A stretch of DNA of 46,644 nt from Prevotella sp. GTDB lineage: Bacteria; Bacteroidota; Bacteroidia; Bacteroidales; Bacteroidaceae. This document shows positions 22,690 to 46,644 of this stretch, piece by piece; position 1 is the first letter of the stretch, and each line of letters opens with the position of its first letter. Location of the stretch: assembly GCA_017627765.1 (NCBI GenBank), contig JAGAGD010000073.1, positions 1-46,644 of the forward strand. The letters run 5' to 3'. Under the pieces are notes generated by a model that made no database searches, was not told where the DNA came from, and worked only from the letters and a program-made list of their open reading frames with translations. Both the position numbers and the translations under genes were made by a program.

Positions 22690-22710
22690 AAATAAAAAAA
22701 AGAGAAGACG

Positions 22711-23415
22711 ATGAGAAGACTGAAAAGCATCTTTATTGTGGCTGCTATGCTGATTGCGGCACAAAACATTATGGCACAAAAGGCTCTGAAAATGATGGAG
22801 AAAATTGCAAAAATGCCTAAAGTTGAATATGCCAGCATGGACATTGACTATAGAAACAAACAAAATGTCAGTGCCGAAGACATTCCATATCGAAAGGATA
22901 TGACCAAGCAGGAGTTTATTGACGTATTCACAGAAAGCGGAGACAATATGTCGACGGTTATTCCTGGATTTAACCTAGAGGAGTTCGTAAGTAGTGTTCA
23001 GGAGATGAGCGATGAGGACTTTAGGGAGATGCTGGATTTCATGGTGGACGCTATAGAGCCTATTTTAGACATGCAAAAGGGGATAGAATACCAAATGCTG
23101 TTAGACCTTTCGGCTTGCAGCGAAAAGGACAGGACTAAGATAAAAAAGAAGATAATGAGTCTGACGAAGAATGGGTTTAGTTCACTTGACAGCTATGCAA
23201 GCGACGAGGAAAAGATAACAGCTATAGGACGAGGCGAAGATGACGTTTTTGATGAAATTATTTTTCTAACAGAAGACAATGCCACTTCAAGCCTATATTA
23301 TGCTTCTGGCAAAATAGATTTAAAAAGCCTTACAGAGTACTTCATGAGTAAATCAAGATATGAAGATATCGAGATTGAAGATATCGAGGTAGGGGATAGT
23401 GAAGAGGAATACTAA
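22711..23415 (+). CDS. Exported DUF4252-like protein, tandem paralogue 2
   Basis: A 234-residue protein whose N-terminal ~39 and C-terminal ~130 residues are nearly identical to those of paralogue 1. The stretch from about residue 40 to 105 differs (YASMDIDYRNKQNVSAEDI; VFTESGDNMSTVIPGFNLEE), and its substitutions change residues at many positions. This mosaic indicates recent duplication plus either diversifying selection or gene conversion at both ends. A signal peptide is present; function is unknown. Confidence 0.75.
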   Translation: MRRLKSIFIVAAMLIAAQNIMAQKALKMMEKIAKMPKVEYASMDIDYRNKQNVSAEDIPYRKDMTKQEFIDVFTESGDNMSTVIPGFNLEEFVSSVQEMSDEDFREMLDFMVDAIEPILDMQKGIEYQMLLDLSACSEKDRTKIKKKIMSLTKNGFSSLDSYASDEEKITAIGRGEDDVFDEIIFLTEDNATSSLYYASGKIDLKSLTEYFMSKSRYEDIEIEDIEVGDSEEEY

Positions 23416-23436
23416 AAATTAAAAAAAGAGAAGACG

Positions 23437-24159
23437 ATGAGAAGACTGAAAAGCATCTTTATTGTGGCTGCTATGCTGATTGCAGCACAAAACATTATGG
23501 CACAAAAGGCTCTGAAAATGATGGAGAAAATTGCAAAAATGCCTAAAGTTGAGCAAGGCTTCATAATTTTTAATGGCGCAAACGAGGAACAAGATTTCAA
23601 TGATAATCCTTTCAAAGCAGACATGAAAAGGGAGGAAGTTATCAGTGTCATGAATGATGCATTTGACAAAATATTGCCAGGCGACACTATTACGAAAAAA
23701 GAACTGGCAAATTTCATCAATAATGCTAGTAATGAGGAATTTGAAGAGGTTCAGGCATATATCGGTGGAATTGTAGCACCTATGTTCGACATATTCTGCA
23801 ACATTGACAAGATTCACATAATTGAACTTACGGGGTGTGATGACAAAATAAAGAATAAGGCAAAAAATATGTTCCACAAGCTTACATCAAAGGGCTATCA
23901 CTATGTTGAGAAGATAGAGGGAATTGAAGACCATGACATTATTGAAAGAACTGAAAAGCAAAAGATAAAAGAACTGGTGTTCTTGACTGACAGCGACAAC
24001 GAGATGAATATTATCTACGCGTCAGGCGATATGGACTTCGGCGATATGGAGCATTATATAAAAGAGGTATTGGATATGGCTGCGCAAACTGAAAAAGTTG
24101 ATTACCCTATAACGATTGACATGAGCGATGAAGATGATGAAGAATCACCAATATTATAA
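23437..24159 (+). CDS. Exported DUF4252-like protein, tandem paralogue 3
   Basis: A 240-residue protein. Residues 1-39 are identical in type to paralogues 1 and 2, including the signal peptide. The rest is only distantly related (VEQGFIIFNGANEEQDFND; IELTGCDDKIKNKAKNMFHK; ELVFLTDSDNEMNIIYASGD), while keeping the same spacing of motifs, such as YASGDMDF versus YASGKIDF. The abrupt switch suggests that only the 5' block was homogenised with its neighbours. It ends with an acidic tail (DMSDEDDEESPIL). Function is unknown. Confidence 0.72.
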   Translation: MRRLKSIFIVAAMLIAAQNIMAQKALKMMEKIAKMPKVEQGFIIFNGANEEQDFNDNPFKADMKREEVISVMNDAFDKILPGDTITKKELANFINNASNEEFEEVQAYIGGIVAPMFDIFCNIDKIHIIELTGCDDKIKNKAKNMFHKLTSKGYHYVEKIEGIEDHDIIERTEKQKIKELVFLTDSDNEMNIIYASGDMDFGDMEHYIKEVLDMAAQTEKVDYPITIDMSDEDDEESPIL

Positions 24160-28852: not shown

Positions 28853-29020
28853 TTTCTTATTTACTTTCATACCTATATACAAAGAAAAAACAACCCATTG
28901 CGTCAATGGATTGTTTCTTAAACGGTTAATATTCTTCTAAGCTGTGTTGAGGCGACCTTTGGCTCAGAGACATCCGTCACTAAATCAAACAAAAGCCACA
29001 CAAACTCAACTTAACATAAG

Positions 29021-29093
29021 TCGGGATGAGGCGATTCGAACGCCCGACCCCTACGTCCCGAACGTAGTGCGCTACCAACTGCGCTACATCCCG
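29021..29093 (-). tRNA. tRNA-Pro (anticodon CGG)
   Basis: On the minus strand the acceptor CGGGATG pairs with CATCCCG. The anticodon stem CTACG/CGTAG encloses TTCGGGA (anticodon CGG), and the T-loop is TTCGAAT. The C1-G72 pair is typical of bacterial tRNA-Pro. CCA is not encoded. Confidence 0.95.
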
Positions 29094-29145
29094 ATTACTC
29101 TTCTGTCGCCCTAAAACATCAATGAAATGGGCAAGAAAAGCGATG

Positions 29146-29177
29146 CAAAGGTAACCCATTTATCGCAGTTGAACAAA
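29146..29177 (-). promoter_or_regulatory. Promoter of tRNA-Pro
   Basis: On the minus strand TTTG (29174-29177), 20 bases, then TACCTTTG (29146-29153), about 53 bases before the tRNA. Confidence 0.7.
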
Positions 29178-29202
29178 TTTTTTTAAAATTTTCTTCATGG
29201 AA

Positions 29203-29235
29203 TTTGTTGTATTTAATAAAAAATTATTACCTTTG
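29203..29235 (+). promoter_or_regulatory. Promoter of tRNA-Phe
   Basis: TTTG (29203-29206), 21 bases, then TACCTTTG (29228-29235), 31 bases before the tRNA. It is divergent from the tRNA-Pro promoter, with the same -7 box. Confidence 0.65.
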
Positions 29236-29266
29236 CACCGCTTTTGAAGATTAAAGCAAAAATAAT

Positions 29267-29339
29267 GGTGCCTTAGCTCAGTTGGTAGAGCATCGGACTG
29301 AAAATCCGTGTGTCCCCGGTTCGATTCCTGGAGGTACCA
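29267..29339 (+). tRNA. tRNA-Phe (anticodon GAA)
   Basis: The acceptor GGTGCCT pairs with AGGTACC. The anticodon stem CGGA/TCCG encloses CTGAAAA, with anticodon GAA at 29300-29302. The T-loop is TTCGATT. CCA is not encoded. Confidence 0.95.
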
Positions 29340-29353
29340 CATAGACAACAAAG

Positions 29354-29393
29354 AAAGCCCTGCGATGGAAATCCATTGCAGGGCTTTTTCTTT
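29354..29393 (+). terminator. Terminator after tRNA-Phe
   Basis: AAAGCCCTGCGATGGA (29354-29369) pairs with TCCATTGCAGGGCTTT (29372-29387) with one wobble, followed by TTCTTTT. Confidence 0.88.
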
Positions 29394-29427
29394 TGTCTGC
29401 TTTTAGGTTGACTGCCGCATTAAGTTG

Positions 29428-32804: not shown

Positions 32805-33137
32805 TCACCCCATCCCTACAATAGCATAAGAATTGGCAATAAGCTCCTTCATCACAGCATCAGGACAGTCCTTAGCACGAATGCCAATCCAGTATTTCGG
32901 ACTCATATTAAACGGATCGCAGATATAATCACACGACTCTCGCAAATCCGCAATTCTTGCAGGCTGACACTTTACCGTCACCACATCAAACTTATCAAAG
33001 TCGAAATAGCAGAATATATGTCCGCCAACATAGAAAGCAAGCACACTCTCTGCTCCATGAAATTTCACAAACGGAGTCTTCTCTACAACATCCGTTCCCA
33101 CCGTCAGGCAATATTCCCTAATTTCCTCTACGTTCAT
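32805..33137 (-). CDS. MmcQ/YjbR family protein
   Basis: A 110-residue small protein of the MmcQ/YjbR family (CyaY-like fold): MNVEEIREYCLTVG, then VVEKTPFVKFHGAESVLAFY, FDKFDVVTVKC, and YWIGIRAKDCPDAVMKELIA. Some members are annotated as DNA-binding; the true role is uncertain. Monocistronic on the minus strand. Confidence 0.88.
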   Translation of the reverse strand: MNVEEIREYCLTVGTDVVEKTPFVKFHGAESVLAFYVGGHIFCYFDFDKFDVVTVKCQPARIADLRESCDYICDPFNMSPKYWIGIRAKDCPDAVMKELIANSYAIVGMG

Positions 33138-33270
33138 AAATTAAACCTTTAAACTATGCAAAGATAACGCTTTTCCACAAATCACACAACAAACTCCCAC
33201 ACTATCCACATCATAACAGCCTACATACTGATAAGTGACAACAGCAGAACAACTCCCCCCATCCTAATGT

Positions 33271-33301
33271 TTTGTCAGTTAATAATTTATTCCTAACTTT
33301 G
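33271..33301 (+). promoter_or_regulatory. Promoter of the gene at 33366
   Basis: TTTG (33271-33274), 19 bases, TAACTTTG (33294-33301): a full consensus match. Confidence 0.8.
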
Positions 33302-33365
33302 TACCGAGAGATTTATCCTCAAGAGGAACCTTTCAAACTAAGAAAATCAATCATCAGTAAAAGAA

Positions 33366-33737
33366 ATGAAGAAAGCATCATTTATAATCGTCATGCTTCT
33401 TTCTGCCATTTGTCTGAAAGCACAGAGCATAAGCCACATTGAGAAAACAAAGTCATGGTACTACATCTACGACCAAAACGGGAAAAAGATAAAGACTCTA
33501 AGCACCAGTCAAGGAGAGTTGAAGGGCTACAGTTCCACGTTCTACATAATCAAGCAAGGCTCAGGTTTCTATATCACATACGATGTAAGCGGAAAGAGGC
33601 TCCACACATTTAGCATCTCCACCGTAGGAGAGATAGTCAGCGTTGCAGGAGACACCTTCACCAGCCGCAAAGACGCATGGATATACACATGGACCAAAGC
33701 AGGTAAGAAAATAAAAACAAGATCAGCACATAAATGA
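33366..33737 (+). CDS. Small exported beta-repeat protein
   Basis: A 123-residue protein with a signal peptide (MKKASFIIVMLLSAICLKAQ). The mature part has three or four similar short units ending in a lysine-rich turn: YYIYDQNGKKIKTLSTSQGE, FYITYDVSGKRLHTFSISTV and WIYTWTKAGKKIKTRS. This resembles repeat units of small beta-propeller-like or WG-like proteins. Function is unknown. It has its own strong promoter. Confidence 0.75.
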   Translation: MKKASFIIVMLLSAICLKAQSISHIEKTKSWYYIYDQNGKKIKTLSTSQGELKGYSSTFYIIKQGSGFYITYDVSGKRLHTFSISTVGEIVSVAGDTFTSRKDAWIYTWTKAGKKIKTRSAHK

Positions 33738-33769
33738 AAAAGCAAGAACAAAATTCCACAAACTTATAT

Positions 33770-33800
33770 TTTGCTATTTAATTATTTATTCTTAACTTTG
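33770..33800 (+). promoter_or_regulatory. Promoter of dinD and possibly the whole island
   Basis: TTTG (33770-33773), 19 bases, TAACTTTG (33793-33800), 28 bases before the dinD start. No LexA-type operator is recognised. Confidence 0.8.
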
Positions 33801-33828
33801 CGGATTAAGTAAAGAGAATCCTCATCAA

Positions 33829-34659
33829 ATGAAGAAAGAAGAAATACTGGCTCTATTTAAGAGTTACGAAGATGCGGTTTGCATGATTGACGAAACCGAA
33901 TGCTGGAGTGCACGTGATTTGTGTACACTATTTGGCTATCAACAATGGCGTAATTTCTGTAATGTCATTGACAAAGCCAAAGAGGCATGTAGTAATGCAG
34001 GACAATCTGTTTCTGATCATTTTGCTGACGTCAGCAAAATGATAGACATTGCAAAAGGTGCTCAGCGTGAGGTGGATGACATTATGCTCACCCGCTATGC
34101 TTGCTATCTGGTTGCGCAGAATGGCGACCCAAGAAAGCCGCAGATTGCTTTTGCACAGACTTATTTTGCAGTTCAAACCCGTCGTGCAGAACTGATAGAG
34201 CAACGACTTTTGGAAGTTGAGCGAGTTAAAGCACGAGCCAAATTGCAGGAGACAGAACGAAAACTTTCAGGCATCTTGTATGAACGTGGAGTAAATGACC
34301 AGACTTTCGCTGTTATCCGTTCCAAAGGGGATCAGGCACTCTTCCGTTTGAGCACAAACATGATGAAACGTAAGTTGGGGATGCCACAAGGCCGTCCTCT
34401 TGCCGATTTCCTTCCTACTATAAGCATCAAGGCAAAAGACTTCGCTGCGGAAATGACAAGTGTCAATGTGCAAGCCAAAGACCTTCAAGGCGAAGCATCC
34501 ATTACACGGGAACATGTTGACAATAATGCCGCAGTACGCAAGATGCTCACAGAGCGAGGTATTATCCCAGAAAATCTTCCTCCTGCAGAGGATGTCAAAA
34601 AGGTAGAACGCCGTTTGGTAAGTGAGCAGAAGAAGATGCTGAAGAATAAGAAGAAATAA
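33829..34659 (+). CDS. dinD: DinD-like (BRO-N family) DNA-damage-inducible protein D
   Basis: A 276-residue protein. Residues ~10-110 resemble the BRO-N/DinD core ([53 protein letters not shown]). A helical region with [20 protein letters not shown] and [20 protein letters not shown] follows, as in DinD proteins. In E. coli DinD belongs to the SOS response and inhibits RecA filaments in vitro. Homologues are frequent next to type I restriction genes; the hsdM-like gene starts 30 bases downstream on the same strand, so they are probably co-transcribed. Confidence 0.9.
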
Positions 34660-34689
34660 TCTATCTTCTCATTAAGAAAAGAATAACTT

Positions 34690-36972
34690 ATGGATATTCA
34701 AAAAAGAAACAACGATAAAGAGATTTACGCTCCTCTAAAGTCTAAATGGCTTGTTATGAAGCCCGAAGAGGAAGTCCGACAAAAATATATTTGTCGCATG
34801 GTTGATAGCTATGGCTACTCTCTTGACCAGATGGATCAAGAGATACAAGTTTCTAATTCACAACGTGGGCAGGGTGCAGCACGAGCAGATATTGTTGTAT
34901 GGCGCAGCAAAGAGGATAAGGAATCCAAGAAATATCCTTTGATAGTTGTGGAGTGTAAGGCCGAATCTGTTACCATCCGTAAGGAAGACTATTACCAAGG
35001 AATGAATTATGCTTCATGGGCTCATGCAGACTTTTTCGTTACCACAAACTTAAAAGAAACTCGCATCTTTAGAATTGTCAAAGGCCAGATCCCAGACAAA
35101 CTCGATGAAATTGTGGATATCCCCAATGCTTCAAAAGCTAACAACCAAAAAGAAATTGACAAATTATTGAAGCAGACAAAGGCATTCACACGCGATGAGT
35201 TTTCAAAACTTCTGTTCAAATGTCACAATATCATTCGTAATAATGATAAATTATCTCCTGAAGCGGCTTTTGATGAAATAAGCAAGATCCTTTTCATTAA
35301 GATACGCTACGAACGAAGCAATTCCGATTCCCAAATATTCTCAGCTGATCGCTTTACAGCCTTAAAGAAGAGTCGCGAGGAATACAACAAGGAGATGAAT
35401 ATTAAAGACGAGAAACCTTTTTATCAACATCTCTTTGACCTAACAAAACAAGAGTTCGTTCATGACCATCTCTTTGATGATAATGCAAAAATAGAAATCC
35501 GTGAAAACAGTTTTGAGCAGATTGTGAAGGAGTTAGAGATTTATAACCTCTCTACGACTTCAGACGATGTGAAAGGTATCGCTTTTGAGAAATTCCTTGG
35601 TAAAACATTCAGGGGAGAACTGGGACAATTCTTTACGCCTCGTACCATTGTGGACTTCATGGTATCAGTACTAGACCCGCAAGAAGGAGAATTGGTATGT
35701 GACCCGTGTTGTGGTAGCGGTGGATTCTTGATAAAGGCTTTTGAATATGTTCGTGAAAAGATAGAAAAAGACATTGAGCAGCAGAAAGAGGATATCAAAG
35801 CGCAGTTCTATGGTGATGACTACGATAAGATGTCAGACAAACTGAAACAAGAGGTTGAAGCCGAAGTCGCCCAGACCTTCTCATATTTGAACGAGGAACT
35901 GAATATCAATAATGAAAAGGGACGATTACGTTCTCTTTCTTATGACTGCATATATGGCACAGATGCTAATCCGCGAATGGCACGTACAGCCAAGATGAAC
36001 ATGATTATGCACGGTGACGGTCATGGTGGTGTACATCATCATGATGGTTTGCTTAATGTAAATGGCATATTTGAGAACCGTTTTGATGTAATTCTAACTA
36101 ACCCTCCATTTGGCGCAAGGGTTGAAAAGGATTTGAAAATATCTGAGGCAGACAAATTTACAGATGAAGCCAAAATTAAAGAATATAAAGAGCGGTATGG
36201 CAAAGAGGAATACGGAAGAGCCTTAAGTCAGGTTAATGACAATGTCGGCAAATCGTTATTAAGTTTATATAAGATTGATAGCAGTTTGACGGAAGTCCTA
36301 TTTATTGAGCGCTGTCTAAATCTATTGAAGCCAGGCGGAAGAATGGGTATTGTACTACCTGAAGGCGTGTTGAATAACACAAATCTACAAAAGGCACGTG
36401 ATTTCGTGGAAGGAAAGGCCAAGATTCTCCTGATTGTGTCTATTCCTCAGGATGTTTTTATCGCATCTGGAGCAACTGTAAAGCCAAGTCTCCTTTTCTT
36501 TAAGAAGTTTACTGAAGAAGAGGCCTTTGAGTATTCACAAATTTTACATCAAGCCCAAATGAATGTTTCGTCTAAATACGAGGACGAGGTTAGTGAACTT
36601 GAAGAAAAAATAAAATTGAGAGGAAAAGATGCTCTGACAAAGGAAGAAAAAAAAGCTTGTAGGGCTAAATTGAAAGCCTTACAGGAAAGAATGGAGGCAG
36701 AAATCAAGTCAATAGTCAAAGAAAAATTTGATTATGAAATTCCAATTGCTGAAGTTCATAAGGCTGGAATTAGTTCTACTGGTGCTGAGATAGAAAATGA
36801 ACTTATACCATTAGCCAAAGAGTTTACTCCTTATCGTATTGGAAACAAATTATGGAGTGTGCCTATCAAATCTGTCAAATATGAAACAGATGAAACTGGG
36901 ACTGCCTTTCGTGTTAGAATAACGGACAACATTCTGTCAGAGCCAGAGGTGTTTTACGAACTTAAAAATTAA
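34690..36972 (+). CDS. hsdM: Type I restriction-modification methylase with N-terminal nuclease-like domain
   Basis: A 760-residue protein with two parts. Residues ~20-150 read as an HSDR_N_2-type PD-(D/E)xK domain: ADIVVW (Asp67), then IVVECKAE (Glu88, Lys90). Residues ~190-640 are an N6-adenine methylase of the HsdM type: GQFFTPRTIVDFM, the SAM-binding motif VCDPCCGSGGF (DPCCGSGG at 338-345) and the catalytic NPPF (471-474). The C-terminus (~600-760) is helical, then beta-rich. Typical HsdM proteins are ~500 residues, so the nuclease-like part is an addition. It could cut DNA or merely be structural. hsdS follows after 6 bases; no full-size hsdR lies next to it. Confidence 0.9.
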   Translation: MDIQKRNNDKEIYAPLKSKWLVMKPEEEVRQKYICRMVDSYGYSLDQMDQEIQVSNSQRGQGAARADIVVWRSKEDKESKKYPLIVVECKAESVTIRKEDYYQGMNYASWAHADFFVTTNLKETRIFRIVKGQIPDKLDEIVDIPNASKANNQKEIDKLLKQTKAFTRDEFSKLLFKCHNIIRNNDKLSPEAAFDEISKILFIKIRYERSNSDSQIFSADRFTALKKSREEYNKEMNIKDEKPFYQHLFDLTKQEFVHDHLFDDNAKIEIRENSFEQIVKELEIYNLSTTSDDVKGIAFEKFLGKTFRGELGQFFTPRTIVDFMVSVLDPQEGELVCDPCCGSGGFLIKAFEYVREKIEKDIEQQKEDIKAQFYGDDYDKMSDKLKQEVEAEVAQTFSYLNEELNINNEKGRLRSLSYDCIYGTDANPRMARTAKMNMIMHGDGHGGVHHHDGLLNVNGIFENRFDVILTNPPFGARVEKDLKISEADKFTDEAKIKEYKERYGKEEYGRALSQVNDNVGKSLLSLYKIDSSLTEVLFIERCLNLLKPGGRMGIVLPEGVLNNTNLQKARDFVEGKAKILLIVSIPQDVFIASGATVKPSLLFFKKFTEEEAFEYSQILHQAQMNVSSKYEDEVSELEEKIKLRGKDALTKEEKKACRAKLKALQERMEAEIKSIVKEKFDYEIPIAEVHKAGISSTGAEIENELIPLAKEFTPYRIGNKLWSVPIKSVKYETDETGTAFRVRITDNILSEPEVFYELKN

Positions 36973-36978
36973 TTCGTT

Positions 36979-38451
36979 ATGCCAGAAAACGTTTATACAT
37001 ATTTGAAGTTCGTAATCTACAGAGAGCTTGAGAATTGGAGCGTTCAATATTCAATCAATAGTAATTTGAATTTTGGAAGAAAATTTGAATTGAAGAAAAT
37101 TGGTTCTTTTCTTACACGTAATAAAACTGCTGTTACCGTGGAGGATTATGTTTCTTACAAACGGGTTACGATAAAAACTAATAATGGGGGATGTTGTCTT
37201 AGAGATGAACTTAGCGGGAAACTCATCGGAACAAAACAGCAATTTGTTATATCGCAAGGACAATTTATTCTCTCTAAAATCGACGCTCGCAACGGAGCTA
37301 TGGGGGTTGTTCCTTCCGAATGCGATAAAGCCATAATAACAGGAAATTTTTGGACTTTTGATGTCAACGAGAAATTGATTGATTCACATTATTTGTCTCT
37401 TGTAACAACAACAAAAGCCTTTGTGGATTTTGCTGAAAAAGCAAGCAATGGGACAACAAACAGACATTATCTTCAAGAGCCACTGTTCTTATCTCAAAAG
37501 ATTCCGTTGCCAACCATAGAAGAGCAGCGAACATTAGTGTCAGCTTTCAATGATAAAATTAGTCATTCGGAAGCACTTGAACTGCAAGCCGCACAAGTGG
37601 AACAAGATATAGAAGATTATTTATTGTCAGAGTTGGGCATTAAGCAAAAAGGTTACACGCAAGCGGAGCCAACTGCAACCGTAGCAAGCGAGCCGCAAAT
37701 GGAGTATGTTGTAAGCAATCGGCAATTGGAAGACAGTGCAGACACATACCATTGGAGAGATGAGATAAAAAAAGAATACAAGTATCTGAAGTTTGTGAGA
37801 TTCAAGGATGTGATAGAATGGGGGTATGATAGAATGGTTGGGGGAAATAATAAACTTCTACATTCTACTATTTACCCTAACTATAAATTAGGCCAATTGT
37901 TGGATATAAATCCAACGACATCATTCTCCAATCTTGATGGCAGTGATGAAATATCATTTATACCGATGGAGTGCATTTCGGACAAATATGGAGAATGGAA
38001 GGAAAAACGTATTTGTAAAGTGAGTTCATCAAAGGGCTATACCAAGTTTTCTGATGGTGACTTAATTTGGGCGAGAATAACACCGTGTATGCAAAATGGA
38101 AAATCTGCCATTGTTTATGGTTTGGAAAATGGGTATGGGTGTGGTTCAACAGAGTTCCACGTTATAAGAAATCATAATGAGGATTTGAATTTACGCTATA
38201 TACATTTGCTTTTAAGATTGCCCGAAGTGTTGAAAGATGCAATGAAATCCTTTACGGGTTCAGCAGGGCAACAACGTGTTCCCAAATCATATTTAGAGCA
38301 ATTGACGGTGCCTGTACCTTCATTAAACATTCAAAGCACAATCGTTGAGCATATCAACAAGCAAAAAGAGCAAATCAAACAATTAAGGCTACAAGCAGAG
38401 AACTTGAGAAAAGAAGCGTTGGTAGAATTTGAAAAAGAGATATTTGAATAA
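36979..38451 (+). CDS. hsdS: Type I specificity subunit HsdS
   Basis: A 490-residue DNA-recognition subunit with two target-recognition domains. TRD1 is at ~30-190 (LKKIGSFLTRNKTAV; FILSKIDARNGAMGVVP; ending LPTIEEQRTLVSAFNDK). TRD2 is at ~280-450 (YKLGQLLDINPTTSF; GDLIWARITPCMQNGKSAIV; LTVPVPSLNIQSTIVEHIN). Each is followed by a coiled coil (AAQVEQDIEDYLLSELGI; KEQIKQLRLQAENLRKEA). Together they define a bipartite target sequence that cannot be predicted here. No inverted partial copy of hsdS is seen nearby. Confidence 0.9.
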   Translation: MPENVYTYLKFVIYRELENWSVQYSINSNLNFGRKFELKKIGSFLTRNKTAVTVEDYVSYKRVTIKTNNGGCCLRDELSGKLIGTKQQFVISQGQFILSKIDARNGAMGVVPSECDKAIITGNFWTFDVNEKLIDSHYLSLVTTTKAFVDFAEKASNGTTNRHYLQEPLFLSQKIPLPTIEEQRTLVSAFNDKISHSEALELQAAQVEQDIEDYLLSELGIKQKGYTQAEPTATVASEPQMEYVVSNRQLEDSADTYHWRDEIKKEYKYLKFVRFKDVIEWGYDRMVGGNNKLLHSTIYPNYKLGQLLDINPTTSFSNLDGSDEISFIPMECISDKYGEWKEKRICKVSSSKGYTKFSDGDLIWARITPCMQNGKSAIVYGLENGYGCGSTEFHVIRNHNEDLNLRYIHLLLRLPEVLKDAMKSFTGSAGQQRVPKSYLEQLTVPVPSLNIQSTIVEHINKQKEQIKQLRLQAENLRKEALVEFEKEIFE

Positions 38452-38465
38452 ATTAATCATACAAT

Positions 38466-39725
38466 ATGGTACACAAAGCAAAATTTTCCTATAAATCTCT
38501 CATACAAAGAGACAAAGATGTCATCCATATCAATGGATTAAATAAAGCCAAAGCTGTCTCTCAATTTCTTAAAGCAATAAAATATGGAAAAAGAGAGGGA
38601 TATGATAATTTCTTAATTGATGCTTCGGATTTAGAAGAAGGTGTTTTCCCTAATTCTGTTGTTGCTATTTCGGCTTTAATTGATTTGTATTCAAGCGAAG
38701 GAATTAGTTTTGAATTTGGGAAAATACCATCAGCGTTATTAGCAACAAAGTTTTTGCATCCTCACCATTTTGATGGTAATTCAGATCATATTCTTAATCG
38801 TATTTGGAAGTTTTCTAGTTCAAAGGAAGTTTCTGATATTGTTGATGCTTTTAACATTGAACTCAGAAAAGAAGATAGATTTAGTGCAGGTACGATTTCT
38901 TCTTTGATGTGGTCCTTAAATGAAGTTATGGATAATGTTCTCATTCATTCAGGGGTGGAAACTGCTTATGTAATGGGGCAGATACATAAATCTACAAAAA
39001 ATATTGCCTTCTCTGTTTGTGACTATGGTATAGGTATATATAATTCATTACGTAAATCAAATTTACATAAACCACGAACTGCTATTGATGCTATTACATT
39101 AGCAATAAAAGAGGAAGTCACAAGAGACAGTTCTGTGGGGCAAGGGAATGGACTATTTGGACTACATTCTATTATAAGCCAAGGTAAAGGTACACTAGAA
39201 ATTACATCAAGTGGAGCATCATACAAGTTAAATGAAGGTAAAACCTTTTTAAATAGGAACTTACCAATACATTCATTTAATGAACCTGGAACTATTGTTG
39301 ATTTCCAACTTAACTATGGTAAAGACATCTCATTGGAAAACGCATTAAAATTCAGAGGAAAGGATTATAGTATAACAGACCTTTATATCGAAAGTTTTGA
39401 TGATGACCAAGGGCATAATTATTATTCGGTAAAAGATCATTCAAGTGGAACTGGTACACGTGGTTCAGCATTGAGAATCAAAAATGAGGTTATGAATATA
39501 ATAACTGAAACGAGAAAACCTGTGATAGTTGATTTCAAAGAGATAGCAGTCATATCATCTTCTTTTGCAGATGAATTAATTGCAAAATTATTATTGGAAC
39601 TTGGCCTTTTTCAGTTTAACAATTTAATCAAACTCCGTGGAATAAATTCTCAAGAACAAAATATTTTACAACGTTCTGTTATACAACGATTAGTAGATAC
39701 TCTTAATGAACCAACTATTTTATAA
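38466..39725 (+). CDS. STAS-like / GHKL ATPase / DUF4325 protein
   Basis: A 419-residue cytosolic protein. Residues ~15-90 look STAS-like (YDNFLIDASDLEEGVFPNSV). Residues ~140-260 contain a GHKL-type ATP-binding site: N-box LNEVMDNVLIH (151-161), G1 box CDYGIGI (185-191) and G2 box GQGNGLFGL (225-233). Residues ~320-405 resemble the STAS-like DUF4325 domain (KPVIVDFKEIAVISSSFADE). No histidine phosphoacceptor or membrane segment is visible, so it is not a classical sensor kinase. It lies 14 bases after hsdS and 26 bases before the GIY-YIG gene. Its role in the cluster is unknown; ATP-dependent sensing or remodelling is inferred. Confidence 0.8.
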   Translation: MVHKAKFSYKSLIQRDKDVIHINGLNKAKAVSQFLKAIKYGKREGYDNFLIDASDLEEGVFPNSVVAISALIDLYSSEGISFEFGKIPSALLATKFLHPHHFDGNSDHILNRIWKFSSSKEVSDIVDAFNIELRKEDRFSAGTISSLMWSLNEVMDNVLIHSGVETAYVMGQIHKSTKNIAFSVCDYGIGIYNSLRKSNLHKPRTAIDAITLAIKEEVTRDSSVGQGNGLFGLHSIISQGKGTLEITSSGASYKLNEGKTFLNRNLPIHSFNEPGTIVDFQLNYGKDISLENALKFRGKDYSITDLYIESFDDDQGHNYYSVKDHSSGTGTRGSALRIKNEVMNIITETRKPVIVDFKEIAVISSSFADELIAKLLLELGLFQFNNLIKLRGINSQEQNILQRSVIQRLVDTLNEPTIL

Positions 39726-39751
39726 CTGCTTTTGAAAATATACCTTTACAT

Positions 39752-40579
39752 ATGGGCAAAACAATAACTACATATCTGATAGACGGAGATCCCAAAGGAA
39801 CACAATATGTATTCATCAGCAATAAGATTTGCCAAATGTATGTAATTCCTCGTTCTAATCTTTCTATTCTGAATGAACGACAGGAGTTGCAGACACCTGC
39901 ATTCTATATCTTGTTGGGCGAAGATGAAGCAACTAAGCCAAAGGCTTACATTGGCGAGACGGAGAACTTTCGTGAACGGGTAAAAGACCACGATAGTAAA
40001 AAAGCGTTTTGGCAAAAGGCATTGCTGTTTATCTCTAAAGATGCAGCCATGACAAAGGCTGATGTGCAATACTTGGAGCATCGAGCCATCGCAGAGGCAA
40101 AGACTTCCAATACTTTTGTGCTGAATGAGAATAAGCAAACGCCAAAGGCACCTAATCTACCTGAGTACAGAAAGGATGATATGGAGAGGTTCTTTGAAGA
40201 CGTGAAGTTCCTCACATCCTTTATTGGCTGCAATATTTTTGATGTGGCTAAACCAAAGGAGAAGCATTTGTTCTATACAAAAGGACGTGGCTGCGATGCC
40301 AAAGGTTTCTATGATGCTAATGGTTTTACCGTATTGAAAGGTAGTATCATTGCAAATACTTCTGTTCCTTCACTTGTTTGGAAAGAGAAACGAGAAAAAC
40401 TTCTTAAAGATTATACTGTCAGCAATGGCGATAATCTGGAATTAGAATCCGACAAAACGTTTTCCAGTCCCAGCACAGCTGCCGATTTCTGTATTGGCAG
40501 TAGCAATAATGGCTGGCTCGTTTGGAAAGACAAAGATGGTCAGACATTGGATTCTGTGTATAGAAAGCAATTAGAATAA
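39752..40579 (+). CDS. GIY-YIG nuclease with C-terminal DUF4357
   Basis: A 275-residue protein. The GIY-YIG domain spans ~48-125: AFYILL (Tyr52), AYIGET (Tyr66-Ile-Gly68), NFRERVKDH (Arg74) and QYLEHRAI (Glu109), which cover the usual catalytic positions. Residues ~210-270 (FSSPSTAADFCIGSSNNGWL, then VWKDKDGQTLDS) match the DUF4357 domain typical of restriction-linked GIY-YIG proteins. It may act as the cleaving component of the system. It starts 26 bases after the GHKL gene and ends 23 bases before tcmP. Confidence 0.88.
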   Translation: MGKTITTYLIDGDPKGTQYVFISNKICQMYVIPRSNLSILNERQELQTPAFYILLGEDEATKPKAYIGETENFRERVKDHDSKKAFWQKALLFISKDAAMTKADVQYLEHRAIAEAKTSNTFVLNENKQTPKAPNLPEYRKDDMERFFEDVKFLTSFIGCNIFDVAKPKEKHLFYTKGRGCDAKGFYDANGFTVLKGSIIANTSVPSLVWKEKREKLLKDYTVSNGDNLELESDKTFSSPSTAADFCIGSSNNGWLVWKDKDGQTLDSVYRKQLE

Positions 40580-40602
40580 TTAGATTGAGTGGATTAGGCT
40601 AT

Positions 40603-41739
40603 ATGGCTAAAAAGGATATAAATAAAGATGTATTTACTGAAGAAACAATGCTGAGATTAGAAATATTTCGGCAATGTTTCCGTGAATGGTACCCTGTGTT
40701 TGTTCACAACAAATTCATCTCGCACATATTTGTATATGATATGTTTGCTGGAAGTGGTAAAGATATCGCCCAACACCCAGGATCTCCAATCATACTTTTC
40801 CAAGAAGCGCGAGGTGATAAACGGCAACATTGCAAATCATTGTTAAAGAGAGGAATCCCATTCATTACATTTGGTTATAATGAATTAGATGAAGTTAAGA
40901 GGACAGAACTGGAATCTAATGTGTCGGCAGAATTTACTCTATGCAAATCACAATGTATAGAAAAGGTATGTCCTTTTCAAAATGCATTCTTTTTTGAATC
41001 ACAAGATTTCTCCTCATTGATTAACAACAGAAGATTAAATCAGATATTGTCCAATGCAAAATATGCAAAATTTATTTTGCTTGATCAATATGGTTTTAAG
41101 CAAATTAATGATGATGTTTTTCTTAAATTGGTTAATTCACCGACAACAGACTTTATCTTCTTCATAGCATCTTCTTTTATTAAACGATTTAAGGATTTAC
41201 CTGCTGTTACAGCCTATTTCAAAAAAAATAAAATTTCATTTGATGAAACACAACCAAAGGAATGTCATAAGGTTATAACGGATTATTTTAGGAGTTTGAT
41301 TCCTGCAGATAAAAAGTATTATCTACATTCTTTTACAATTCAAAAAGGAAGCAATTACTATGGGCTAATCTTTGGTTCTGCTCATTCGCTAGGAATGGAA
41401 AAGTTTGTCAAGGTTTGTTGGAAGGAAGATAGACAAGCAGGAGAGTCAAATTGTAATCTTTATAATGATTTTGAACCTGGTACACTGTTTTACGACCCAC
41501 AATATACAAATAAGAAGACACGTATAATTAAGGAAATCAAAGAAAAAATACTTAATTCTACCATCAAAGACAATATTACAGGATTGGATTATGCCTTAGA
41601 ATGCGGCTGTGAGCCCAAATTGTTTGTTGAAGTAATGGATTCTATGATAAAAGAGAATAGAGTTAAGATTTTGGGCACTTACAACAAACAGGCAACAAAT
41701 ATTCATAAGGCAAATATATATAAAATAGAACTGAAATGA
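40603..41739 (+). CDS. tcmP: Three-Cys-motif partner protein TcmP
   Basis: A 378-residue protein from the ATG at 40603; an in-frame TTG at 40585 is an unlikely start. The N-terminal part contains HIFVYDMFAGSGKDIAQHPG, then SPIILFQEA, the hallmark of TcmP proteins, which read like a divergent Rossmann or methyltransferase-like fold (FAGSG as the loop). FILLDQYGFKQI lies near the middle. TcmP is named for its constant association with a three-Cys protein, and that partner follows directly: the TGA of tcmP overlaps its ATG (ATGA at 41736-41739). The biochemical activity is not established. Confidence 0.88.
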   Translation: MAKKDINKDVFTEETMLRLEIFRQCFREWYPVFVHNKFISHIFVYDMFAGSGKDIAQHPGSPIILFQEARGDKRQHCKSLLKRGIPFITFGYNELDEVKRTELESNVSAEFTLCKSQCIEKVCPFQNAFFFESQDFSSLINNRRLNQILSNAKYAKFILLDQYGFKQINDDVFLKLVNSPTTDFIFFIASSFIKRFKDLPAVTAYFKKNKISFDETQPKECHKVITDYFRSLIPADKKYYLHSFTIQKGSNYYGLIFGSAHSLGMEKFVKVCWKEDRQAGESNCNLYNDFEPGTLFYDPQYTNKKTRIIKEIKEKILNSTIKDNITGLDYALECGCEPKLFVEVMDSMIKENRVKILGTYNKQATNIHKANIYKIELK

Positions 41740-42467
41740 GAACAACCAAAATAGAATGGACAGAACGAACCTGGAATCCAGTCACAGGGTGTAATAAGAT
41801 TTCTGAAGGATGTCGTCATTGTTATGCAGAGATGATGACAAGGCGTTTGTTTGCTATGGGTAATCCAAAGTATGCGAACAACTTCATACCCACAGAACAT
41901 CCGGAAGATTTGTTGGAACCATACAACTGGAGAAAGCAATCAACTGTTTTTGTCTGCTCTATGAGCGATTTGTTCAATGAGAAAATTTCTTTTAATTTCA
42001 TTGACAAGGTGTTTAACGTTATTAAAGATACTCCTCAACATACATATCAAATACTAACGAAAAGAGCGAAGCGGATGGCGGAGTATTTTGAAAGCAGAGT
42101 TATTCCACCTAACGCATGGATCGGTGTTACTGTAGAAAATAGGAATGCTATTGAACGGATTGATTCAATTAGACACCTTGATGCGAAAGTGAAATTTTTA
42201 TCATGTGAGCCCCTTCTGGAAGATTTAGGGGAATTGGAACTAGATGGAATAAATTGGATTATTGTTGGTGGTGAAAGTGGTGTTTCTGCTAGGCCCATGA
42301 ATGAAAAATGGGTCGTAAACATAATGAACCAAGCTCATCAACTAAACATACCATTCTTTTTTAAACAATGGGGAACATGGGGATGTGATGGAATTAAACG
42401 TAATAAAAGAAAAAATGGCAAACTTATAAATGGGGAAATAGTTCAAGAATTCCCAATAGTTTATTAA
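41736..42467 (+). CDS. Three-Cys-motif protein, phage Gp37/Gp68 (DUF5131) family
   Basis: A 243-residue protein. Near the N-terminus VTGCNKISEGCRHCYAE places Cys19, Cys26 and Cys29 as a C-x6-C-x2-C cluster, followed by VFVCSMSDLF, YQILTKRAKRM, WIGVTVEN, KFLSCEPLLED, IVGGESG and FFFKQWG, all conserved DUF5131 motifs. The Cys cluster and TIM-barrel-like pattern suggest a radical-SAM-like iron-sulphur enzyme, a family-level inference. Start and stop overlap tcmP (ATGA) and the next gene (TAATG), indicating translational coupling on both sides. Confidence 0.88.
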   Translation: MRTTKIEWTERTWNPVTGCNKISEGCRHCYAEMMTRRLFAMGNPKYANNFIPTEHPEDLLEPYNWRKQSTVFVCSMSDLFNEKISFNFIDKVFNVIKDTPQHTYQILTKRAKRMAEYFESRVIPPNAWIGVTVENRNAIERIDSIRHLDAKVKFLSCEPLLEDLGELELDGINWIIVGGESGVSARPMNEKWVVNIMNQAHQLNIPFFFKQWGTWGCDGIKRNKRKNGKLINGEIVQEFPIVY

Positions 42468-44049
42468 TGCTTATGATGACCATACAAGAAATAACAACCC
42501 GTAAAGAAGACCAAACGTTTGACTGCAAGGGTATTCAAATAGAGCCGAAGGCATTGGCTGTGCCTATCGTGGCGTTTGCCAATGCAGATGGTGGCGTAAT
42601 AGCCATTGGAGTATCGGATAAGACTCGGAAGATTGAAGGGATTAATCAGCATACAGATAAGTTGAACGAACTGCTACGTGTGCCGTTTGATTTCTGCAAT
42701 CCATCGGTTCCAGTGACATGCTCATACCTTCCTTGCACAGATAAGGATGGGAACGAGAACCGGATCTTGCTCATGGAGATTCCTGCCAGTTCGAGCCTTC
42801 ATACTAATCAAGCAGATGAAGCCTTTATGCGTGTTGGCGATAAGAGCCGGAAACTGTCCTTTGACGAGCGTGTGCAACTGATGTACGACAAAGGGGAACG
42901 CTACTACGAAGTACAGCAGTGTATGGCGCAACCATCGATGACATCGACATGGATGCTGTTGCCGACTATGCCAAATTGGTCGGCTATGGGAAAAGTCCCT
43001 TGCAATACTTGCGCGAGAACAATGGTTTTGTGAGGACCAACAAGAAGGCTGCGATTAAGCGAGAGCAGAGCGATGCTCGCATCAGCTCTGCCGAGCGTGA
43101 GCAGGCTCGACCGGAGGTCAATGGTGAAGAGGATGTGAGCACGGCATGTATTCTTCTCTTTGGCAAGTATCCCCAGAAGTTTTTCCCTCGTGCCCGTACT
43201 CGCTTCATCAGATATGAAGGTGTTGACGAGAAGGTAGGTGCTGAAATGAACGTCATCAAGGATGTTACCTTTGAGGGAACCATCTTGAACCAGATCAAGA
43301 AAACGATTGAGTTTATCGAGACTCAGGTTCGAGAGCATACGTTCCTGGGGCAACATACTCAGTTCGTAACGAAACGCGACTACCCTAAATTCGTCATTCA
43401 AGAGATGACGGTCAACGCTTGCTGCCATCGGGCCTACAACATCAAGGGTACAGAGATACAGATCAAGATGTTTGACGACCGGTTGGTATTTGAGTCTCCG
43501 GGCAAACTCCCTGGACAGGTGAAGCCAAACAATATCCGGCACACCCACTTCTCTCGTAATCCCAAGATAGCAGCCTTCCTCAAAGCATATCACTTTGTGA
43601 AGGAGTTCGGTGAGGGCTTTGATCGTATCTGCCGTGAACAAGAGGCTAATGGTGCCAATGTCCCATCCTTCAGGACTGACGAGTTCATCCTAAAGATTAC
43701 AGTGCCAAAGGTAGCAGAAAACGTACAGAAGCAAACTGGAAACGTAACAGAAAACGATTGGAAGGTAGCAGAAAACCATAATAAGGTAGCAGATAAGGTA
43801 GCAGAAAATCATGGCAAAGTCATAGAAAAGTTGAGAGAAAAAGCTGCTAAATTAGGAGAGACATTAACAGCCAATAGAATCAAGATACTTGAACTGATGA
43901 TTGAAGATCCGTATATATCGAGAGCTGATTTGGCAAATAATGTCGAAATTAGTGAAACTTCGATTTACCGCAATATTGAAGCTATGCGCGGAAAGTATCT
44001 CCGCCGTGTAGGTCCCGATAAAGGCGGTTTCTGGGAGGTAATAGTTTAA
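42467..44049 (+). pseudogene. AlbA_2 / HATPase_c_4 / winged-helix gene, interrupted by a frameshift
   Basis: The first frame (42467 to a premature stop at 43033) encodes an AlbA_2 (Schlafen-like) domain: TRKEDQTFDCKGIQIEPKAL, VAFANADGGVIAIGVSD, DEAFMRVGDKSRKLSFDE. The natural continuation is in another frame from about 42912-42920 (VYGATIDDIDMDAVADYA onward). It encodes an HATPase_c_4 region (VIQEMTVNACCHRAYNIKG; RLVFESPGKLPGQV), a repetitive linker of KVAEN units (about 43700-43830), and a C-terminal winged helix (NRIKILELMIEDPYISRADL). Such proteins are usually ~480-540 residues; the joined frames give about 526. So one gene has lost its frame, either by a real mutation or a base-call error. 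It overlaps the DUF5131 stop. Confidence 0.85.
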
Positions 44050-44108: not shown

Positions 44109-44205
44109 GAGGCGGCTGTAATGTTACACCAGTAAATAAAAATAGGCTGAAAATCAAGCGATTAACAGCCTATTTTTGTACCCAGAGCCGGAACATAACC
44201 GCCTC
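44109..44205. repeat. Nested imperfect palindrome between the AlbA_2 gene and the integrase
   Basis: The outer arms GAGGCGG (44109-44115) and CCGCCTC (44199-44205) are extended by ATGTT (44121-44125) and AACAT (44192-44196). They enclose the terminator hairpin at 44138-44177. It could be an extended terminator or a recombinase site next to the integrase gene. Confidence 0.5.
44138..44177 (+). terminator. Intrinsic terminator closing the defence-like block
   Basis: AAAAATAGGCTG (44138-44149) pairs with CAGCCTATTTTT (44166-44177) around a 16-base loop, 89 bases after the AlbA_2 gene stop. Confidence 0.8.
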
Positions 44206-44355: not shown

Positions 44356-44363
44356 TACCTTTG
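44356..44363 (+). promoter_or_regulatory. -7 box of the integrase promoter
   Basis: TACCTTTG matches TAnnTTTG, 35 bases before the start at 44399. A TTTG at the expected -33 distance is not evident. Confidence 0.5.
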
Positions 44364-44398: not shown

Positions 44399-45577
44399 AT
44401 GGCAGAATTAAGAGGCAAGAATAAGAACCTCGTGGAAGCAGGAAATCCGCGATTATTGAAGAAATTGGTGAAGAATGACACCGAATATAGCCTATATTTG
44501 GAGTATCAGATGGGGTATAATCGGGACAACGGCACATCCATTCGCAAGAAGGAAAGTCTGTCGCTGTATCTTTTGGCTTCACCTCGAACACCCATTCAAC
44601 GACAGCAAAACAAGGAGACGTTGGAATTGGCCAAGAAGATTCGTTTCGAGCGTGAGCAAGAGTTCCTGGACAACCGCGAGGGCTATCGACTGAAGAAAGA
44701 GAAAGGCATCAACTTCCTCGACTACTACCAGTCGTACATCAGCAGCTATACCAAGAAAGACATCCGCATGATTCAGATTGCCCTCAATCGTTTCCATGAC
44801 TTTCTTGCGGAGTATCATCCGCTGTTGAAAGACTTCATCCGGCCCGATGCCATTACTCATGAAATGATGGTAAAGTTTGCCGAATACCTTCAGACTCGTA
44901 GTGTGGGCGAAGGGGCAAAAAGCATCTTGCAGCGATTCAAGAAAGTGGTGCGTTCTGCCGTTGACCAGGGCATCATGGCGAAAGATCCATGCAAGGGAGT
45001 TGTTTGCGTCGTTGATGACCAGGTGCTGAAGAAGGATGTGCTCTCACAAGAGGAGATCCAGAAACTCATGGATACCCATTATCAGTTCGAGAAAGAGAAC
45101 GTCCGCAATGCCTTCATCTTCTGCCTTTATACAGGCATGCGATTCTGCGATGTCAAAGACCTGCGCTACTCGAACATTGACTATGCCAACAAACTCCTGC
45201 GCTTCGAACAGGACAAGACTAAAGGACATTCTGCCCGCAGTTGGGTCACCATTCCCCTCAATGATGGACTCATCCATCTGGTTGGCATGCCAAAAGAAGG
45301 AGAGACAAAGGAATCGCTCGTTTTCAACCTCCCATCATACGAAAGCTGCTGTAAGTCCGTCAAGCGATGGGTGAAACGTGCCGGCATTGACAAGCACATC
45401 AGCTGGCATTGTGCTCGCCACTCCTTCGCCGTGAACATCCTCAACAACGGAGCCAATATCAAGACCGTTGCCAGCCTTCTTGGCCATAGCGGTTTGAAGC
45501 ACACCGAGAAATACACCCGTGCCGTTGATAAGTTGAAAGAGGATGCCATCAACAGCCTGCCAGCACTCAACCTATAA
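44399..45577 (+). CDS. Tyrosine site-specific recombinase (integrase)
   Basis: A 392-residue recombinase. Residues ~25-100 form an arm-type DNA-binding region, ~105-200 the SAM-like core-binding domain (FLDYYQSYISSYTKKDIRMI), and ~215-380 the catalytic domain. The active-site set is visible: Arg248 (LYTGMRFCDVKDL), His337 and Arg340 (SWHCARHSF), His363 (LLGHSGL) and Tyr372 (TEKYTRAVD). It belongs to the integrase group common on Bacteroidota mobile elements and in type I restriction loci, where some members invert hsdS segments. No att site could be defined. It separates the hsdM/S block from hsdR. Confidence 0.93.
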   Translation: MAELRGKNKNLVEAGNPRLLKKLVKNDTEYSLYLEYQMGYNRDNGTSIRKKESLSLYLLASPRTPIQRQQNKETLELAKKIRFEREQEFLDNREGYRLKKEKGINFLDYYQSYISSYTKKDIRMIQIALNRFHDFLAEYHPLLKDFIRPDAITHEMMVKFAEYLQTRSVGEGAKSILQRFKKVVRSAVDQGIMAKDPCKGVVCVVDDQVLKKDVLSQEEIQKLMDTHYQFEKENVRNAFIFCLYTGMRFCDVKDLRYSNIDYANKLLRFEQDKTKGHSARSWVTIPLNDGLIHLVGMPKEGETKESLVFNLPSYESCCKSVKRWVKRAGIDKHISWHCARHSFAVNILNNGANIKTVASLLGHSGLKHTEKYTRAVDKLKEDAINSLPALNL

Positions 45578-45775: not shown

Positions 45776-45823
45776 TATCTTTGTGCCGCAAATTGATTAT
45801 ATTAGAGATATTATATCTCTAAT
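45776..45823 (+). promoter_or_regulatory. Promoter -7 box and palindromic candidate operator of hsdR
   Basis: TATCTTTG (45776-45783) fits the -7 consensus. Just downstream ATTAGAGATA (45801-45810), a 3-base spacer TTA, and TATCTCTAAT (45814-45823) form a perfect 10-bp inverted repeat between the predicted transcription start and the ATG at 45850, a good position for a repressor site or a 5' hairpin. Confidence 0.55.
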
Positions 45824-45849: not shown

Positions 45850-46644
45850 ATGACGCAGAGCGAAGAGATACTGGAGCAAGGACTAATAAAAACCCTGACG
45901 GAAATGAACTACGAGTACGTTTCTATCAAGGAGGAAGAGAACTTGCTCGCTAATTTCAAAGTGCAGTTGGAAAAGCACAACCAGAAGGAACTGGCTGCGC
46001 ATGGTCGTGAACACTTTACCGATAAGGAGTTTGACAAAATACTGCTCTATCTGGAGGGCGGCACCCGCTTTGAAAAAGCCAAGAAACTGCGCGACCTGAA
46101 GAACTTCCAACTGGAAAACGGCGAACGTGTGTGGATTGAGTTCATCAACAAGCAACACTGGTGCCAGAACGAGTTTCAAGTCAGCAATCAGATAACGGTT
46201 GAAGGACGAAAGAAGTGCCGCTACGACGTGACTATACTCATCAATGGTCTGCCACTGGTACAGATAGAACTGAAGAAACGTGGCGTGGAACTGAAACAGG
46301 CGTACAACCAGATTCAACGATACCACAAGACTTCGTTTCACGGGCTCTTCGACTACATACAACTCTTCGTTATCAGCAACGGTGTGAATACCCGTTATTT
46401 TGCCAACAACCCTAACAGCGGCTATAAGTTCACGTTCAACTGGACGGATGCAGAGAACGTGCCGTTCAATGACCTTAGTAAGTTTGCCTACTTCTTCTTT
46501 GACAAGTGCAATCTTGGCAAGATGATAAGCAAGTACATTGTACTGCATGAGGGCGATAAGTGTTTGATGGTGTTGCGTCCCTATCAGTTCTACGCTGTAG
46601 AGCAGATTCTCGACCGAGTACAGAACACCAACAAGAATGGCTAC
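45850..46644 (+). CDS. hsdR: Type I restriction enzyme HsdR, 5' part (runs off the window)
   Basis: The frame from the ATG at 45850 (MTQSEEILEQGLIKTLTEMN) stays open for 265 codons to the window end. It matches the N-terminal nuclease region of HsdR: residues ~115-150 contain RYDVTILINGLPLVQIELKK, placing a PD-(D/E)xK site at Asp126, Glu140 and Lys142, followed by AYNQIQRYH and LFDYIQLFVISNGVNTRYFA. LRPYQFYAVEQI near the end is the sequence that normally precedes the Walker A helicase motif, which must lie beyond 46644. This is a second, full-type R subunit, separated from the hsdM/S block by the recombinase; its own M and S genes may lie downstream. Confidence 0.92.
   Translation, partial: MTQSEEILEQGLIKTLTEMNYEYVSIKEEENLLANFKVQLEKHNQKELAAHGREHFTDKEFDKILLYLEGGTRFEKAKKLRDLKNFQLENGERVWIEFINKQHWCQNEFQVSNQITVEGRKKCRYDVTILINGLPLVQIELKKRGVELKQAYNQIQRYHKTSFHGLFDYIQLFVISNGVNTRYFANNPNSGYKFTFNWTDAENVPFNDLSKFAYFFFDKCNLGKMISKYIVLHEGDKCLMVLRPYQFYAVEQILDRVQNTNKNGY

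Follow-up and report, generated by a model that had tools for sequence, protein, structure and literature searches.

A probable BcgI/BsaXI-like restriction core without HsdR and a probable stack of independent defence genes in a predicted transcription unit of Prevotella sp.

The DNA analysed here ("the window", 46,644 nucleotides) is the whole of contig C42 (JAGAGD010000073.1) in a 2.48 Mb, 88%-complete assembly of Prevotella sp. (GCA_017627765.1), and its subject is a block of genes at positions 33829-44049 that an initial annotation had read as eight co-directional genes of one composite anti-phage system, in which a type I-like modification core is joined to several possible effectors. The coordinates agree with the layout described then: the genes from dinD to DUF5131 all lie on the + strand, with gaps of 30, 6, 14, 26 and 23 bases and two start/stop overlaps. 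Seven of the eight genes are also as described, while the last one, AlbA_2, is two overlapping frames and not one gene. The features of the block and of its surroundings are as follows (loci and genomes compared with the window carry our numbers L and G).

33770-33800, + strand: predicted promoter TTTG-N19-TAnnTTTG of Bacteroidales type (pattern match)
33829-34659, + strand: dinD (PDC-S13), an optional member (NF008573 353.7 bits, cut-off 242; PDC-S13 E 8e-117)
34690-36972, + strand: HsdM, with an N-terminal PD-(D/E)xK (HSDR_N_2) nuclease domain and an N6 adenine methyltransferase domain (motifs D67...E88-x-K90, DPCCGSGG, NPPF)
36979-38451, + strand: HsdS, with two target-recognition stretches (PF01420, 2 stretches)
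38466-39725, + strand: GHKL ATPase with DUF4325 (STAS-like) (PF14213 E 4e-9; PF02518 E 7e-4)
39752-40579, + strand: GIY-YIG nuclease with a DUF4357/RAMA-like C-terminus (PDC-S14) (PF14267 E 8e-20; PDC-S14 E 9e-85)
40603-41739, + strand: TcmP, with a predicted class I S-adenosylmethionine (SAM)-methyltransferase fold, first half of PDC-M30 (PDC-M30 models for TcmP and DUF5131: E 3e-107 and 5e-111)
41736-42467, + strand: DUF5131, with a predicted radical-SAM-like barrel and C19-x6-C26-x2-C29, second half of PDC-M30
42467-44049, + strand: AlbA_2 / HATPase_c_4 / helix-turn-helix (HTH) gene in two frames (42467-43033 and 42919-44049)
44136-44179, + strand: terminator-like hairpin with a T run (-20.1 kcal/mol, z -8.28, 0/200 shuffles)
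44399-45577, + strand: tyrosine integrase, treated as a unit of its own (PF00589 E 8e-24)
45850-46644, + strand: N-terminus of hsdR, truncated at the contig end and interpreted as the beginning of a different locus of classical type I (HSDR_N E 1.3e-40)

HsdM is a protein of 760 residues, in which Pfam places HSDR_N_2 at residues 25-145 and the N6 methyltransferase domain after it. Thirteen distinct relatives were collected: five among 294 further genomes of the order (E 1e-100), seven among 250 further genomes of the family (E 1e-120) and L048, with L049 and L058, which are the same contig, counted once. In an alignment of HsdM proteins (n=14), D67 of the nuclease motif is kept in 14/14 and E88-x-K90 in 13/14, L064 having A and R at the latter two positions. 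Restriction enzymes of the BcgI/BsaXI type are defined by a single chain that unites nuclease and N6 methyltransferase, by a separate HsdS-like specificity subunit and by the lack of HsdR. HsdS follows HsdM in 11 of the 13 relatives, directly in ten of them and behind a YhcG nuclease gene in L048, and no HsdR was found beside HsdM in any of the 13. In the 12 genomes searched, three of which have HsdM on contigs shorter than 15 kb, no other HSDR_N domain (PF04313) turned up within 15 kb of HsdM on its contig, the nearest being 18.9 kb away (G206); the same search found HsdM's own domain in 10 of these 12 genomes (missing it in G128 and G469). L048, which stood outside this search, has no hsdR profile match within its 21 kb. 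On a Flammeovirga (Cytophagia) plasmid, an HTH gene, HsdM, HsdS and an "ATP-binding protein" follow one another, the last three being separated by gaps of 2 and -1, and this stretch has no annotated HsdR; no such ATP-binding partner is annotated for the HsdM relative of an Acidithiobacillus plasmid. Both HsdM and HsdS of a type I restriction-modification (RM) system are present in the window, and the comparative evidence gives no sign of an HsdR translocase belonging to this pair. The initial annotation, which had seen no adjacent HsdR, overlooked the hsdR N-terminus at the contig edge, but it was right in that no HsdR appears to belong to the core.

This edge hsdR begins 1.8 kb downstream of the block on the same strand, behind the terminator-like hairpin and the integrase. 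At the thresholds used, its family is found in 16/251 genomes of the bacterial family and this HsdM in 8/251, and the two occur together only in the genome of the window (G000). Fourteen of the 16 other places with hsdR were enlarged (all but G471 and the second of G321), and an hsdM of 516-527 residues lies behind hsdR on the same strand in ten of them, sometimes with genes between; of the other four, L083 and L095 end at hsdR, L094 has a short hsdR open reading frame (ORF) and L093 has no hsdM. The DNA of L083 resembles the window from the start codon of hsdR onwards (96% over 796 bases), a stretch that excludes the integrase. Since its family mostly heads hsdR-hsdM loci and co-occurs with this HsdM in no other of the 251 genomes, the edge hsdR looks like the head of another, classical type I locus rather than a part of the HsdM-HsdS core. 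Its N-terminus (45850-46644) shares 100% protein identity and 96% DNA identity with that of G309, a genome from another genus of the family, which suggests a recent transfer.

That the block is read as a single transcript is supported as a prediction by a promoter pattern 5' of dinD and a hairpin 3' of AlbA_2. The pattern, which we take to be the Bacteroidales promoter consensus, has its last base 28 bases upstream of dinD. It occurs 14 times in the window against 2.27 expected (0/100 shuffles reach 14), and since it is found inside the block only once on the + strand (within the GHKL gene) and twice on the - strand, the block reads as one transcript. The closing hairpin has 14 outer pairs and a T run. 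This pattern and a long-loop hairpin were adopted because scans for sigma-70-type promoters (27 sites against 33.8 in shuffles) and for short-loop terminators (9 against 9.5) showed no excess. Single -7 boxes lie upstream of the integrase (44356-44363) and of hsdR (45776-45783), but they carry little weight because -7 boxes alone are scarcely enriched (the window has 54, where chance predicts 42.7). The stretch from the dinD promoter to the hairpin after AlbA_2 is predicted to be one transcription unit.

We then considered whether the order of the genes is kept in relatives, as the idea of one composite system implied. The genes of these loci were named with profiles built from proteins that were first found with the window's own proteins as queries, so that the names rest on those first matches. 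The set HsdM-HsdS-GHKL-GIY-TcmP-DUF5131 was complete in none of the 13 other HsdM loci, 12 of which could show it since L045 ends behind HsdS, and a kept order is therefore not borne out. A partial order was seen in two of the 13: HsdM-YhcG-HsdS-GHKL-GIY-AlbA_2 in L048, which comes from a goat rumen metagenome-assembled genome, and HsdM-HsdS-194 residues-GHKL-Fic in L058. In DNA, window and L048 share 75% identity along the greater part of hsdM (34690-36522). A second shared stretch, at 80%, runs from 37800, near the end of hsdS, up to 40580, where it stops a single base after the stop codon of the GIY-YIG gene. L058 shares hsdM (86%) and GHKL (82%) with the window but, in its DNA, not hsdS; it also holds two decayed GIY-YIG 5' ends that flank GHKL (9249-9331 and about 10660-10746) and that are probably relics of two gains and losses.

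The gene behind HsdS or HsdM varies among the 13 relatives, being an AAA ATPase in six, a GHKL ATPase in two, and another gene or none in the others. AAA_15/AAA_21 ATPases, for which "OLD-like" is our own label, stand next to HsdS in L043, L044, L046 (after 200 bases), L062 and L063, and a homologue directly follows HsdM in L064; all six are mutually linked by BLASTP. A GHKL/DUF4325 gene lies after HsdS in L048 and L058, in the latter behind the 194-residue ORF. GmrSD is found further on in L043. Elsewhere, DUF2971 follows in L059, the next gene is on the opposite strand in L060 and L061, and L047 has a distant ORF. Companions of ~130 residues follow the AAA ATPase in L043 (10831-11223) and L062 (10413-10802), are 86% identical to each other and are also similar to the C-terminal end of a protein of L061 with T5orf172 (E 3e-5). 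The search for GHKL itself gave eight distinct relatives at E 1e-40 or better, a match in 1/250 other genomes of the family and three loci on genome contigs; hsd genes lie upstream in three of the eight relatives (L036, L048, L058), and the other five have no hsd profile match nearby.

For the GIY-YIG protein, the RAMA (E 2e-6) and GIY-YIG (E 4e-4) matches both stay below Pfam's cut-off. Of the 21 other genomes that had matches, 19 (all but G058 and G092) supplied the 20 loci that were enlarged. Matches to the hsdM or hsdR profiles lie near GIY-YIG in 5/8 loci at 66% identity or more, in 1/1 at 42% and in 0/11 at 40% or less, so that linkage to type I genes differs between close (6/9) and distant (0/11) relatives (0.002, hypergeometric), with the contigs of L141, L142, L156 and L157 being shorter than 8 kb. 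Two close plasmid relatives (79-82%) also adjoin annotated type I genes. Some relatives are damaged, with internal stops in G060 and a gene in two pieces in G259 and G105. L141 (453-5554) has the order tcmP-DUF5131-GIY-YIG, which differs from that of the window, behind a gene for an NA37 nucleoid protein and an unassigned ORF of 506 residues.

TcmP and DUF5131 form a strict pair. DUF5131 comes immediately after TcmP in 15/15 other genomes of the order with a TcmP match (E 1e-10), and in the window the two genes overlap by four bases. TcmP is predicted to fold as a class I methyltransferase and DUF5131 as a radical-SAM barrel, with fold lists that leave other folds possible. DUF5131 has the predicted barrel of a radical SAM enzyme but not what we take to be its canonical CxxxCxxC; its cysteines are spaced C-x6-C-x2-C instead and are invariant in 17/17 proteins. 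In 5 of the 15 loci the pair directly adjoins an RM gene: a type III RM gene in L158 (gap 15), an MmeI-like type IIG enzyme in L160 (gap 9), a type I hsdS in L162 (gap 6, with hsdR on the far side), an Eco57I-like type IIG enzyme in L172 (gap 21) and, directly downstream of the pair, a type I hsdS in L170.

The pair is also found on plasmids. Among 399 plasmid records with DUF5131, 12 were inspected, from the upper part of the ranking (at least 34% identity), and TcmP was annotated beside DUF5131 in 11 of them; conversely, DUF5131 stood beside TcmP in both of the records inspected out of three with TcmP. All four arrangements of tcmP and DUF5131 are present in these 14 stretches, and four of them have an RM-type neighbour: type ISP (H1, H112), a "restriction endonuclease" (H114) or McrC (H109). 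Some lower-ranked plasmid matches of DUF5131 bear the name "radical SAM mobile pair protein A". In a phage collection, DUF5131 was found in 159/50,697 records, 98 of them from Gordonia or Mycobacterium phages; TcmP had no match in the 50,697 records, a weak absence because TcmP is divergent. A sequence search of solved chains (E 0.01) with TcmP, DUF5131, GHKL and GIY-YIG gave no match. No described mechanism for the pair was seen among the papers listed in our literature searches, and the expression data of one study include TcmP beside Hna (PMC12445080).

The AlbA_2 gene is broken or mis-assembled in the window, because its domains are spread over two overlapping frames: 42467-43033 holds the AlbA_2 domain and 42919-44049 holds HATPase_c_4 and HTH, with an overlap at 42919-43033. 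L048 has an unbroken AlbA_2 protein of 511 residues, which is 24-29% identical to the two pieces. A phase-variable tract was considered for the break and rejected, as inspection of 42900-42940 by eye revealed no homopolymer or short repeat.

Base composition varies along the block, with G+C fractions of 0.445 in dinD, 0.385 in hsdM, 0.371 in hsdS, 0.317 in the GHKL gene, 0.402 in the GIY-YIG gene, 0.319 in tcmP, 0.367 in DUF5131 and 0.462 in AlbA_2, against 0.43 upstream. A dinD profile match lies upstream of hsdM in one of the 13 HsdM relatives (L062). Four of the eight genes are PADLOC candidates, namely PDC-S13 (dinD), PDC-S14 (GIY-YIG) and PDC-M30A/B (TcmP, DUF5131); a term search of the PADLOC server paper found no mention of PDC (PMC9252829). 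Neither the tRNA region at 29000-29420 nor the left flank at 33100-33830 was found to share a direct or inverted exact repeat of at least 12 bases with the right side. Farther away in the window, three tandem ORFs of 234, 234 and 240 residues lie at 21985-24156, of which the second and third match DUF4252, and 3597-6119 encodes a C10 peptidase with a Spi inhibitor domain, BspA-type leucine-rich repeats and an MBG domain.

Altogether, these results favour, with a probability of about 0.66, a reading in which one transcription unit carries an HsdR-less BcgI/BsaXI-like core and, behind it, a modular stack of independent guest defences, which also agrees with the earlier view of a modification core with several possible effectors. 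From the gene content, motifs and linkage patterns observed, together with the predicted folds, we infer that HsdS would read a two-part site, that the HsdM methyltransferase would mark host DNA and that HsdM's own PD-(D/E)xK domain would cut unmarked DNA with no HsdR, as in enzymes of the BcgI/BsaXI type. The guest modules behind this core would be exchanged piecemeal between relatives. The first would be the GHKL ATPase, in the place where 6/13 relatives carry the AAA_15/AAA_21 ATPase; the GIY-YIG/DUF4357 nuclease may be a cutter of modified phage DNA; and the third, TcmP-DUF5131, would act as a unit and as a second line added to several kinds of restriction system.

Several observations weigh against this reading. 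The tight gaps could mean a joint function of all the genes. The most distant HsdM loci, L047 and L064, have no adjoining HsdS, and the ATPase "slot" is occupied in only 8 of the 13 HsdM relatives. The HSDR_N search is blind to R subunits with other N-terminal domains, and an HsdR lying farther away would be missed because the contigs of L045 (8.3 kb), L060 (12.7 kb) and L047 (13.7 kb) are short. Three of the four GHKL relatives at 37-41% identity (L035, L037, L038) have no hsd gene nearby, so that GHKL need not serve the core. No hsd gene is seen either in three of the eight close GIY-YIG loci (L139 and, on short contigs, L141 and L142), and 10 of the 15 TcmP loci have no recognised RM neighbour, including five whose upstream genes were unscanned (L159, L164, L165, L168, L169).

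The short gaps, the two start/stop overlaps and the single promoter pattern and hairpin would also be expected if HsdM and HsdS marked self and all the downstream proteins worked in one MADS- or DISARM-like pathway. GHKL-GIY-AlbA_2 indeed follows HsdS again in L048, HsdM resembles MAD2 (304 bits), HsdS weakly resembles MAD5 (31.6 bits) and the GHKL protein matches the PADLOC DrmA model (102 bits). Such a composite system is nevertheless unlikely, considering that the full order was found in 0/13 other HsdM loci, that the MAD2 and MAD5 scores are far under the NCBI cut-offs of 720 and 400 with no other MAD model matched, and that TcmP-DUF5131 and GIY-YIG are found with other RM types and also where no RM genes were recognised; these two modules have hosts and distributions of their own, which speaks against the joint function of all the genes that had initially been supposed. 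Mobile elements could instead have piled up the genes into a decaying island in which several of them no longer function and the operon has no meaning as such. The split AlbA_2 gene, the integrase next door, the GIY-YIG remnants of L058 and the damaged copies in G060, G259 and G105 fit that explanation, but 7/8 genes of the block are open frames and the scarcity of internal promoter patterns makes it read as one transcript, so that we consider general decay quite improbable. A classical type I RM locus made of HsdM, HsdS and the edge hsdR, with genes inserted into it, would account for an hsdR 1.8 kb downstream on the same strand, and guests within hsd loci are known, such as RloF and tgvAB (PMC4619093, PMC11411939). 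The hsdR family, however, heads hsdR-hsdM loci in 10/14 enlarged relatives and meets this HsdM family in no other of the 251 genomes, and a hairpin and an integrase separate it from the block; locus type, co-occurrence and HSDR_N distance made us discard this arrangement as very improbable.

A wider idea is that HsdM(nuclease)-HsdS is a docking platform on which a downstream ATPase (AAA/OLD-like or GHKL) replaces HsdR, and that TcmP-DUF5131 is a general RM partner whose radical-SAM enzyme and methyltransferase jointly make or remove a nucleic-acid or nucleotide modification. We hold this combination to be doubtful and offer it tentatively; if it were true, the same chemistry would back restriction of different types. 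Enzymes of type I, type IIG (MmeI-like, Eco57I-like), type III and type ISP were all seen as immediate neighbours of this strict pair of predicted radical-SAM and methyltransferase folds, and if the pair were a common restriction back-up, it would add chemistry akin to that of viperin or photoproduct lyase to RM biology.

Among known systems, the type IIB enzymes BcgI and BsaXI are closest in architecture, with HSDR_N_2 and N6_Mtase in HsdM and Methylase_S in HsdS, and one of the 14 solved structures related to HsdM in sequence is the BsaXI RM chain (8w0p). The best BsaXI stretch, however, covers only query residues 418-618, in the methyltransferase part, and three type I M subunits score higher; in addition, guest genes follow the core in the window. 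HsdM matches MAD2 in two stretches, the better one at residues 9-371, but with both MAD scores under their cut-offs and no further MAD protein among the NCBIfam matches (E 0.01) of the ten sequences from dinD to the integrase, membership in MADS was rejected. A DISARM system comprises the helicase DrmA and two partners, DrmB and DrmC, and here GHKL residues 133-409 match only positions 130-393 of the 1750 of the DrmA model (E 2.8e-30), with no DrmB or DrmC among the PADLOC matches listed (the best 25 for HsdM and HsdS).

The guests have their own counterparts. TcmP and DUF5131 match the two PDC-M30 models as a neighbouring pair; the library entry carries no description, whereas here the predicted folds point to a class I methyltransferase for TcmP and to a radical-SAM enzyme for DUF5131. 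The GIY-YIG protein resembles PDC-S14 and CMoRE (PD-T4-3), a single-gene GIY-YIG nuclease that has a GIYxY-YIG motif and is reported to cut hydroxymethylcytosine (hmC)-DNA (PMC12923530), in combining an N-terminal GIY-YIG domain with a C-terminal domain as a possible sensor of modified DNA; its C-terminus is DUF4357/RAMA-like, whereas that of CMoRE is reported there to be without homologues. Finally, defence genes inside hsd loci have precedents in RloF and GmrSD (PMC4619093), in TgvAB (PMC11411939), in PrrC of EcoprrI (PMC12707154) and in the embedded genes studied by Payne and colleagues, as cited in PMC11411939. The block in the window differs from them in that its host core apparently lacks an HsdR and carries several guests in a stack. 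It is ordinary in kind, with a new gene combination and a variable ATPase neighbour, and the stack illustrates how defence genes may move as interchangeable cassettes downstream of a restriction core, with one boundary at a stop codon.

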